Of a DNA stretch of 64,000 bases, positions 34,773 through 39,233 are shown piece after piece (position 1 is the first letter of the stretch; each line of letters begins with the position of its first letter). Made by a program: the position numbers and the translations under genes. The stretch lies in contig VBNH01000042.1 in NCBI GenBank assembly GCA_005878095.1, forward strand, positions 1 to 64,000, in the 5' to 3' direction. A model generated the notes under the pieces. That model did no database searches. It saw only the letters and a list, made by a program, of their open reading frames with translations, and was not told the origin of the DNA. Source of the DNA: Gammaproteobacteria bacterium (GTDB lineage Bacteria > Pseudomonadota > Gammaproteobacteria > Steroidobacterales > Steroidobacteraceae).

Positions 34773-34788
34773 TGGCACGGCACCTGCT
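34773..34788 (+). promoter_or_regulatory. sigma-54 (-24/-12) promoter of xoxF
   Basis: TGGCAC-N5-CTGCT matches the consensus TGGCAC-N5-TTGCW at all but one position, with the invariant GG (34774-34775) and GC (34786-34787) 10 bases apart. The start of transcription would fall near 34799, giving a leader of about 105 bases before xoxF. An enhancer-binding activator with a GAFTGA loop is encoded 5.8 kb downstream. Confidence 0.78.
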
Positions 34789-34902
34789 AGAGGAACACCG
34801 GTCGCAAGGCTACGTCGCGGCGTCACGCTAGAGGGTGCGCCGTCGCCGGGGGCGGGGCGCTCGGACAATCTAACGATACAACGCGAATCGAGGAGACTGC
34901 GT

Positions 34903-36765
34903 ATGCAATTCGATTCAAAGGGAAGGCTATGGAGGATGTTGGCAATCCTCGCACTCGTGGGCGGGTGCACCGCGGCGATCAGTGACGAGGTCACCGACCG
35001 CGCCAAGGACCCTGATCTGTGGGCGGCGCCCGGCGGCGACCAGGCCCTAACACGGCACAGCCGGCTGAAGGACATCACGACGGCGAACGTCAAGGGCCTG
35101 CAGATGGTCTGGTCGCAGTCGAGCGGAACCCTGCGCGGCCACGAGGGCCAGCCGCTGGTCGTCACCGTCGGCAACACTCCCATGATGTACATGGAGAGCG
35201 GCTGGCCGAACATCATTCAGGCGCTCGACCTCACCGATCCGGACCATCCGCGAGAGGTCTGGAACTACAAGAAGGCTACCAATCGCGATGATTCGGCGGT
35301 TCCGCGGGCCTGCTGCGATACCGTCAACCGCGGGCCGTCCTACGCGGACGGCAAGCTGGTGTTCGGCACCCTCGATGGCTTCGTCATCGCGCTCGACGCC
35401 AGGACCGGCAAGGAGGTCTGGGTCGTCAAGCACGCCTACCCCGCCAAGGGCGAGACCATCACACCGGCGCCGCTCATTGCCGACGGCAAGGTGGTGATCG
35501 GCTTCGGTGGCGATGAGTTCGCCGCCCGTGGTCGCCTGACCGCCTACGACCTCGCGAGCGGCCAGAAGGTCTGGGAGTGCCACAGCACCGGCAGCGACAA
35601 GGACGTGTGCCTGACGCCGGCCACCAACAAGGCGCACCCCGAATACGGCAAGGCCGGGTCGGATGTCGGTATCCACAGCTATCCCGGTGACGAGTGGCAG
35701 CGCGGCGGCGGGGCGATGTGGGGCTTTTACAGCTACGATCCGGAGCTGCACCTCGTCTATGCCTCGACCGGCAACCCCGGCCTGTGGAGCCCGTCCTATC
35801 GCTGCAGTGAGAAGACCCACGAGGCCTGCAACACCGGCAAGCAGGACAACAAGTGGTCGATGTCGATCTTCGCGCGCAAGCTCGACACCGGTGAGGCGGT
35901 CTGGGCGTACCAGATGACGCCGTTCGATCAGTGGGACTACGACGGCATCAACGAGAACATGCTCGAGGACCTGACGGTCGACGGCAAGGCGCGCAAGGTG
36001 CTCGTCCACTTCGACCGCAACGGCTTCGCCTACGTGCTCGACCGCACCGACGGCACGCTGCTGCGCGCTCACAAGTACGTGACGACGAACTGGGCGGAGA
36101 AGGTCGACATGAAGACCGGTCGCCCGATCAAGGTGAAGGAGCATTCACCGTTCGCGCCGGGCGGCAACACGCAGGCCTGCCCGTCGGCCATGGGCGGCAA
36201 GGACCAGCAGCCGTGCGCGATCGACCCGACCGAACCCGGCATGGCGTACTGCCCGACCAACAACTGGTGCATGGAAGACGAGCCCCAGGAGCGCTCGCAT
36301 ACGCAGCAGGGCACGGTGTACGTGTTCGCCAACGTGTACATGTACCCGGAGAAGCCCGGCATCACCGGTAAGTTCAAGAAGTTCAACTTCCTCACCGGCG
36401 AGACGGTGTGGGAAATTCCGGACCCGTATCCGAACTGGGGCGGAGCGCTGGTCACTGACGGCGGCCTGGCGTTCTACGGCAGCCTGAACGGCGACTTCCG
36501 CGCCGTCGACCGCGCCACCGGGGCAGTCCTGTGGCAGCGGCGTCTCGGCTCGGGCATCATCGGTAACCCGATCACCTACAAGATCGCCGGCAAGCAGTAC
36601 GTGTCGGTGTGGAGCGGCATAGGCGGCTGGATCGGATTGCCGGTCACGGCGGGCCTGGACCTCAGCGACAAGTTCGGCGCCATCGGTGCAACCGCCATGA
36701 CCAAGGCGGCGAACCTCGACAAGATTCCGATGGGCGGAACTCTCTACACGTTCCGTGTCGAATGA
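34903..36765 (+). CDS. xoxF: XoxF-type lanthanide-dependent PQQ methanol dehydrogenase
   Basis: This 620-residue quinoprotein oxidises methanol or other small alcohols in the periplasm using PQQ. It shows the vicinal disulfide Cys137-Cys138 (PRACCDTVNRG), Glu205, Asn291 (STGNPG) and WDYDGIN, with catalytic Asp345 and the extra Asp347. That second Asp marks lanthanide-using XoxF enzymes; calcium MxaF has Ala there. A Cys-bearing insert around residues 299-312 (SYRCSEKTHEACNTG) sets it apart from well-known XoxF proteins. The N-terminus fits a lipobox (LVGGC, Cys22). The start is supported by GAGGAG, and a sigma-54 promoter lies 115 bases upstream. Methanol as substrate is inferred from the formaldehyde-handling neighbours. 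Confidence 0.93.
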   Translation: MQFDSKGRLWRMLAILALVGGCTAAISDEVTDRAKDPDLWAAPGGDQALTRHSRLKDITTANVKGLQMVWSQSSGTLRGHEGQPLVVTVGNTPMMYMESGWPNIIQALDLTDPDHPREVWNYKKATNRDDSAVPRACCDTVNRGPSYADGKLVFGTLDGFVIALDARTGKEVWVVKHAYPAKGETITPAPLIADGKVVIGFGGDEFAARGRLTAYDLASGQKVWECHSTGSDKDVCLTPATNKAHPEYGKAGSDVGIHSYPGDEWQRGGGAMWGFYSYDPELHLVYASTGNPGLWSPSYRCSEKTHEACNTGKQDNKWSMSIFARKLDTGEAVWAYQMTPFDQWDYDGINENMLEDLTVDGKARKVLVHFDRNGFAYVLDRTDGTLLRAHKYVTTNWAEKVDMKTGRPIKVKEHSPFAPGGNTQACPSAMGGKDQQPCAIDPTEPGMAYCPTNNWCMEDEPQERSHTQQGTVYVFANVYMYPEKPGITGKFKKFNFLTGETVWEIPDPYPNWGGALVTDGGLAFYGSLNGDFRAVDRATGAVLWQRRLGSGIIGNPITYKIAGKQYVSVWSGIGGWIGLPVTAGLDLSDKFGAIGATAMTKAANLDKIPMGGTLYTFRVE

Positions 36766-36789
36766 GCATGGTGAAGGCAAGTTGAGTGG

Positions 36790-36820
36790 GAAGCGCCCGG
36801 TCTTCAAGACCGGGCGCTTC
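36790..36820 (+). terminator. strong hairpin between xoxF and the xoxJ-like gene
   Basis: GAAGCGCCCGGTCTT and AAGACCGGGCGCTTC form a 15-bp near-perfect palindrome separated by one base, 25 bases after the xoxF stop. Only a short ATTT follows, so it may act mainly as a partial terminator or 3' stabiliser that sets xoxF expression above the downstream genes. Confidence 0.65.
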
Positions 36821-38484: not shown

Positions 38485-38533
38485 CGCCTCGCCCGCGACA
38501 CCGTACGACTGCCATCAACCGAAGAAGTGGGTC

Positions 38534-39079
38534 TTGGCAAAGTGCGTACTCCTCGGCTGTATGGTGCTGCTCGCGATCCCGGTCGTGAGCGCCGATGAGC
38601 CCAAGGCACAGCCGCCGGAGCCGCCCGCGGCGGCGCCGCCGGCCCCCGCGAACGCCATGAAGCCCGCGGATCGGGTCGAGGCGACGTCCAAGGGGCAACT
38701 GAAGAATCCGTACACCGACAGCAACGCCGCGATCGTGGAGGCGGGGTACAAGCTGTACATGCGCTACGGCTGCAACGGCTGCCACGGCGGCAATGGCGGC
38801 GGGGGCATGTGCCCGCCTCTGACCAACGACGTCTGGGTGTACGGCGGGGATGACGACACGCTCTTCCGGCTCGTTACGCTTGGGAGCGACGCGCTGCAGA
38901 GCAAGGGCTACACGCGCATCGGCACGGAGAACGTCGTCGGGCCCATGCCGCCGATGGGCCTGATCGTCGCGAGCGACGACGAGCTGTGGCGGATACTCGC
39001 CTTCGTCCGTTCCAACTTTCACGGGGCGCCGGAGAACAAGTTCGGCCAGCCGCCTGAAACGGTACCGCCCAATCCGTAG
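38534..39079 (+). CDS. cytochrome c, probable XoxG-type electron acceptor
   Basis: This 181-residue exported monohaem cytochrome c has its haem site at Cys80-Asn-Gly-Cys83-His84. The axial methionine probably lies in GPMPPMG (residues 137-142). A proline-rich linker at residues 23-40 follows the signal peptide ([12 protein letters not shown]). The [29 protein letters not shown] segment fits small cytochromes paired with PQQ alcohol dehydrogenases. A TTG at 38534 gives a complete signal peptide. An internal ATG at 38561 is an alternative. It should take electrons from XoxF. Confidence 0.85.
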
Positions 39080-39217
39080 TGGGCTGCGCGGTGTGTGCGC
39101 CAGATCTGGCATCCTGTGGCGCGCGCGGCGCACGCCGCTCACGCGCGCGCACTGCGGCCGCGCGCGAAGCTGCGGCAAGTCACTGCGGAGAAAGGAGGTT
39201 TCTGGTCCTGCGGACGC

Positions 39218-39233
39218 TGGCACGCGGAATGCT
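39218..39233 (+). promoter_or_regulatory. sigma-54 (-24/-12) promoter of frmA
   Basis: TGGCAC-N5-ATGCT has a single mismatch to the consensus, with GG (39219-39220) and GC (39231-39232) 10 bases apart. Transcription would start near 39244, about 45 bases before the GTG of frmA. It matches the xoxF promoter in TGGCAC and in TGCTAG across the -12 element. Confidence 0.75.

Follow-up and report, generated by a model that had tools for sequence, protein, structure and literature searches.

In the window (the whole 64-kb stretch of DNA analysed here, from genome G000), a one-component sigma-54 activator of the AcoR/EatR kind probably drives the porin, xoxF and frmA genes of a single island, most likely on methanol or formaldehyde. 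We base this circuit on the promoter sequences and their conservation, the co-occurrence of the activator, candidate dyads, protein domains and the presence of rpoN. The initial annotation of this DNA had proposed that xoxF and frmA have sigma-54 promoters and that a sigma-54 activator is encoded close by in their island; at the level of sequence, conservation, co-occurrence and a candidate dyad now speak for that proposal, and the activator looks cognate. The genes concerned are the following (positions are those of the window):

24991..26271, minus strand: outer-membrane porin of 426 aa, a beta barrel (AlphaFold model and Foldseek)
34903..36765, plus strand: xoxF, lanthanide-type PQQ methanol dehydrogenase (TIGR03075, 559 bits; WDYD metal site)
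36868..38484, plus strand: XoxJ-like periplasmic protein fused to ankyrin repeats (TIGR03871 and Ank repeats)
38534..39079, plus strand: cytochrome c, an electron acceptor resembling XoxG (match to Pfam cytochrome c; score short of the curated cut-off for MoxG)
39289..40398, plus strand: frmA, S-(hydroxymethyl)glutathione dehydrogenase (TIGR02818, 709.6 bits; GTG start)
40617..42674, plus strand: sigma-54 enhancer-binding activator (GAF, AAA+ with GAFTGA, Fis-type HTH)
42751..43323, plus strand: gfa, S-(hydroxymethyl)glutathione synthase (TIGR02820, 320 bits)

The methanol dehydrogenase is of the XoxF type: it carries WDYDG, with the lanthanide-coordinating aspartate two residues after the catalytic aspartate, and its best solved relatives are the methanol dehydrogenases 7o6z and 4mae. 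The porin protein has no Pfam match, and its AlphaFold model is of modest quality (pTM 0.64, mean pLDDT 59.5); the model is a beta barrel for which Foldseek ranks the channel DcaP first (6eus, E 4.5e-15) and numerous porins after it, and the homologue in G024 is a Pfam Porin_4. A TonB-dependent receptor gene (26295-29042), possibly for uptake of metal or lanthanophore, is divergent from the porin gene. The XoxJ-like protein, of the periplasmic binding type, has a long C-terminal ankyrin array; the same fusion also adjoins xoxF in G287, G110, G285 and G271, and the XoxJ of Dyella is without ankyrin. Scans of the island for sigma-70 promoters and terminators gave results at or below chance.

Three predicted sigma-54 promoters lie upstream of these genes:

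34773..34788, plus strand: -24/-12 promoter of xoxF, TGGCACGGCACCTGCT, predicted transcription start ~34799
39218..39233, plus strand: -24/-12 promoter of frmA, TGGCACGCGGAATGCT, predicted transcription start ~39244
26368..26383, minus strand: -24/-12 promoter of the porin gene, predicted transcription start ~26357

The sites at xoxF and frmA each have one mismatch to TGGCAC-N5-TTGCW, the GG-N10-GC spacing and a following AG (TGCTAG), so that their coordinates, sequence and shared features are exactly as first annotated. They had been presented as a pair; both members stand, but the set was incomplete, the porin site having been missed although it is nearer to the consensus than either of them and lies ~96 bp upstream of the porin start. 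The window thus holds near-consensus boxes with GG-N10-GC spacing upstream of genes. The pattern TGGCAC-N5-NTGCT has three matches in the 64 kb versus 0.16 expected, a count that no shuffle reached, and with an approximate sigma-54 matrix, modelled on published promoter compilations and giving relative scores only, the three sites score 17.5 (porin), 16.4 (frmA) and 16.1 (xoxF), the next best position in the window scoring 12.96.

The relaxed motif TGGCAYN6TGCW is not enriched in the 3.43-Mb genome (33 matches versus 42 for a reversed control), so that the motif alone proves nothing, and genome-wide motif counting was dropped as proof, its matches not exceeding the control. The case for these sites is carried by position and conservation. 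All three lie 55-115 bp upstream of genes of one pathway, where ~0.012 would be expected in the ~2.4 kb of sense-strand upstream sequence (an expectation computed from the genome-wide motif count; P ~3e-7).

The -24/-12 site of the porin gene is invariant in all five aligned porin promoters and the two boxes are their best-conserved part, with a second conserved block, TGTRGC-N6-GGCR, ~100-110 bp upstream; the porin orthologues of G287, G110 and G241, all preceded by a consensus site, lie between xoxF and the RND gene (or the spot that it would occupy). The 400 bp upstream of xoxF hold a site with a score above 15 in G000, G281, G287, G285, Dyella ginsengisoli, a Nevskia MAG, G024, G219 and G235. 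In most of these genomes (Dyella, Nevskia, G285, G024, G219 and G235) the DNA upstream of xoxF is unrelated to that of the window, and simple sequence descent therefore does not explain the site. The frmA site is identical in G281 (frmA 99% identical), and the frmA of G285 (83%) is preceded by TGGCACGGTTGCTGCT; G287 and G241 carry a different frmA copy (62-67%) behind gfa, without a site, presumably transcribed together with the activator and gfa. The expectation that -24/-12 sites would recur in related genomes was thus borne out at xoxF in eight others, at the porin in five of five and at frmA in two others, but it failed at the xoxF of G110 and G241. These two genomes have kept the activator, the dyad described below and a TATGAT element at xoxF, yet have no -24/-12 site there; their only site is that of the porin, ~2 kb upstream of xoxF and in the same direction, and the porin promoter might read through to xoxF. 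In G114 and G134 a related activator and frmA-gfa stand beside xoxF, and neither xoxF nor frmA has a site.

Some relatives have sites at other genes too: in G024 and G219 at a pqqD-like gene followed by a TonB receptor, and at a porin; in G235 at a beta-propeller gene associated with PQQ. Elsewhere among the relatives, quinoprotein alcohol and aldehyde dehydrogenase genes have sigma-54 sites with AcoR-like activators adjoining them. Two loci of same-genus genomes (L131, 11689-12060; L133, 14090-14566) have a quinoprotein alcohol dehydrogenase gene and an aldehyde dehydrogenase gene with divergent sigma-54 sites between them and an AcoR-like activator near. Taken as a whole, the activator family seems to act in the oxidation of alcohols and aldehydes, and this branch in that of methanol and formaldehyde.

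The activator itself has a GAF N-terminus, Walker A and B motifs, GAFTGA in its AAA+ domain and a Fis-type helix-turn-helix (HTH_8), with no receiver domain: the layout of AcoR and EatR. Its frame opens at 40545, and homology begins at 40617; the start, the GAFTGA loop and the GAF region of the initial annotation are all upheld by this homology start and by the domains. The activator also gives a weak match to the DhaR sensor 4lrx. The protein falls below the curated NCBIfam cut-offs (the best model, DhaR, gives 294 bits where 551 are required), and we therefore assign it to the broad AcoR/EatR kind, not to a named member; the island holds no acetoin or ethanolamine catabolic genes.

Across the neighbourhoods compared, activator and xoxF site go together. 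Where an AcoR-like activator lies no more than 10 kb away, 8 of 13 xoxF neighbourhoods have the site; where none does, 1 of 25 (Fisher P 2e-4; 9.6e-4 after dereplication). The lone site without a linked activator is that of G285, where the contig ends and the activator lies on a different contig, beside cytochrome c, gfa and frmA; if G285 is counted as linked the figures become 9 of 14 versus 0 of 24 (P 1.2e-5), and all these P values overstate independence, the genomes being related. In the activator tree the xoxF-linked activators fall into three clades, each with support 1.0: G000 with Nevskia, Dyella with G285, and G024 with G219 and G235. In Dyella ginsengisoli the activator, xoxF with its -24/-12 site, frmA and gfa all lie within 10 kb.

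Upstream of the three sites we find sequences that the activator may bind, and at xoxF a further conserved element:

34648..34665, plus strand: candidate activator-binding dyad of xoxF, TGTGTCACATTCGACACG, 125 bp upstream of the -24 box
39096..39113, plus strand: candidate activator-binding dyad of frmA, TGCGCCAGATCTGGCATC, best match of the xoxF-dyad matrix
26465..26482, minus strand: candidate activator-binding site of the porin gene, TGTAGCTTTTCTGGCAAC, matrix match at -99, in a block conserved in 5 genomes
34736..34741, plus strand: TATGAT, conserved element resembling a -10 box, ahead of the sigma-54 site at xoxF, a possible second promoter

The dyad GTGYC-N6-GRCAC is common to the xoxF upstream regions of the five closest genomes (the window, G281, G287, G110 and G241) and has a single exact match in the 64 kb. 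When a matrix trained only on these xoxF dyads is applied to 10 other promoters, its best match falls at -98 to -128 in 9 of them (0 of 600 shuffles equalled this), and in 5 of 5 when the promoters of the window clade are taken alone (1 of 600 shuffles was as good); both matrix and promoter set were chosen after the loci had been viewed, and orthologous promoters are not independent. Singly the scores are weak (P per 200 bp 0.08 for the window porin, 0.035 for frmA, which has an alternative candidate match, TGTGGCGCGCGCGGCG, at 39115). For these reasons the dyad is a good candidate for the activator-binding site and is put forward only as such. The window matrix does not describe the promoters of the G024/G219/G235 clade, consistent with different recognition helices. 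Two other searches were set aside: a dyad search allowing two mismatches was uninformative (152 matches versus 177 expected), and 10-mers common to promoter pairs were only GC-rich chance matches.

The TATGAT element suggests a different account of xoxF, in which the gene would be transcribed mainly from a sigma-70-type promoter (TATGAT at 34736) with another regulator on the dyad, the sigma-54 site being auxiliary or vestigial and the activator serving chiefly the porin and frmA. We consider this unlikely, although it has some evidence on its side: G110 and G241 have lost the -24/-12 site but retain both dyad and TATGAT, and more distant relatives that lack sites have a similar TATTGATA. TATGAT is kept in G281, G287 and G110 and is slightly shifted in the alignment in G241, so that among the closest relatives TATGAT/TATTGAT is more widely conserved at xoxF than the sigma-54 box. 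The element at xoxF has no -35 match, however, the same type of dyad stands upstream of the porin sites, and the six genomes with an unrelated upstream region (Dyella, Nevskia, G285, G024, G219 and G235) have the xoxF sigma-54 site nonetheless. The pattern in G110, G241, G114 and G134 does mean that xoxF, in the window too, may have inputs besides sigma-54.

A second possibility is that the promoters are real sigma-54 promoters driven by an activator of the NtrC, GlrR or PrsR type, for instance under nitrogen or envelope stress. G000 has one rpoN and, besides the island activator, four further canonical activators (NtrC, a GlrR-type, a PEP-CTERM PrsR-type and PilR), but those four have receiver domains and assigned roles, the island protein being the only GAF-type and only ligand-type one among the five; moreover, three clades show physical linkage of a GAF-type activator to xoxF, and the presence of this activator varies together with that of the xoxF site, which leaves the idea highly improbable. 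The pilin gene adjoining PilS/PilR has TGGCACGGCCTTTGCT upstream and served as a positive control for the sigma-54 scan; a -24/-12 site at pilA beside PilS/PilR is the classical arrangement. At that locus (L206, contig C123, 112-3317) pilA has a consensus -24/-12 site, and PilS and PilR form one open frame, perhaps through an assembly error or a missing stretch between them. The NtrC frame (L208, contig C116, 2224-4467) runs for ~280 additional residues ahead of the receiver domain, which may be no more than an in-frame extension at its upstream end. That the -24/-12 matches are chance occurrences without promoter function, as the genome-wide count would allow, is scarcely credible given their position, their conservation across otherwise unrelated upstream sequence and their co-occurrence with the activator.

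Under the reading that we prefer, activation of all three promoters by the island activator, the island would be a sigma-54 regulon for lanthanide-dependent methanol oxidation. The activator (40617-42674) would bind the dyads ~100-125 bp upstream of the three -24/-12 promoters and loop to the RpoN-holoenzyme; a small signal in its N-terminal GAF region would let it hydrolyse ATP and open the promoters, one feeding the porin, one xoxF, xoxJ and cytochrome c, and one frmA, behind which come the activator gene itself and gfa. Binding to the dyads, RpoN dependence of the promoters and the signal are what we infer. The likely signal would be the substrate or its toxic product (methanol, formaldehyde or the glutathione adduct of the latter), not the metal. 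If the circuit operates in this way, it ties methanol oxidation to formaldehyde clearance and to an outer-membrane porin.

All quinoprotein alcohol dehydrogenases of G000 with a readable metal site have the lanthanide-type aspartate (three or four genes: two matches are only partial and could represent a single gene, and a fifth weak match, on C59, was left out), and no calcium-type dehydrogenase, and hence no calcium and lanthanide pair, was found in this genome, which is 94.7% complete. A switch needs two enzymes to alternate between, and no calcium-type partner was found; on present evidence the island is not shown to be a lanthanide switch. The initial annotation had set the circuit apart from the known lanthanide switches; a one-component sigma-54 circuit does differ from them, while a lanthanide-switch reading is not supported, no calcium enzyme having been found. 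Induction by substrate or product is the simpler reading, by analogy with AcoR, EatR, BmoR and MmoR. It is quite improbable that the GAF region itself detects a signal that depends on lanthanides, be it the metal, a lanthanophore or a compound that XoxF produces only when loaded with metal; were it so, a one-component sigma-54 lanthanide sensor would command import (porin and TonB receptor), cofactor (pqqD) and enzyme genes as a single regulon.

Among known systems the closest in architecture are the EatR/AcoR-type activators, which control acetoin, ethanolamine and aldehyde dehydrogenase genes and share the GAF-AAA+-Fis layout without a receiver. The island activator is 42% identical over 91% to P. 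aeruginosa EatR, which adjoins aldehyde dehydrogenase and eut genes; unlike EatR and AcoR, it is linked to xoxF, a porin and glutathione-formaldehyde genes, and it forms a separate, well-supported clade. Plasmid pTs485 of Thiodictyon syntrophicum (L236/L239) carries a relative of the activator (46%) whose neighbours are genes for cytochrome c, transposases, formate dehydrogenase and, apparently, C1-cofactor synthesis, with no xoxF nearby; this is perhaps a remnant of a methylotrophy island.

A sigma-54 link to a quinoprotein alcohol dehydrogenase is not wholly without precedent. As cited in PMC6115532, exaA of Azospirillum brasilense is sigma-54 dependent with a LuxR-type regulator (Singh 2017); by that account a PQQ alcohol dehydrogenase stands on a sigma-54 promoter, as xoxF probably does here, but its partner is a LuxR-type response regulator, whereas the island has a genuine AAA+ activator. 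A published map of MDH clusters also includes a symbol for a GAF sigma-54 regulator gene (legend in PMC11845868), for which no functional claim was found. Taken together, the exaA case and the mapped regulator make the xoxF circuit less than wholly unprecedented. The literature searched, in which few subscription journals were covered, yielded no report of sigma-54 control of xoxF; the sigma-54 sites of Methylosinus sporium, considered as a precedent, were rejected, being at nitrogen genes.

MmoR and BmoR, the sigma-54 activators of methane and butane monooxygenase (PMC5874634, PMC6366067), resemble the proposed circuit in placing C1 and alcohol oxidation genes under sigma-54, some of these activators having a GAF domain, but their target is a monooxygenase and that of the island activator would be xoxF. 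The lanthanide switches MxbDM/MxcQE, MxaY/MxaB and PedS2/PedR2 are two-component systems that swap calcium and lanthanide enzymes (PMC11845868, PMC6115532); they control the same kind of enzyme as the island, in whose genome the calcium enzyme was not found. A 2024 review concludes that xoxF control needs further study and is likely species-specific, and the circuits that it names are two-component (PMC11845868). If our reading is right, a one-component sigma-54 circuit recurring with three activator clades widens this two-component picture of xoxF control.
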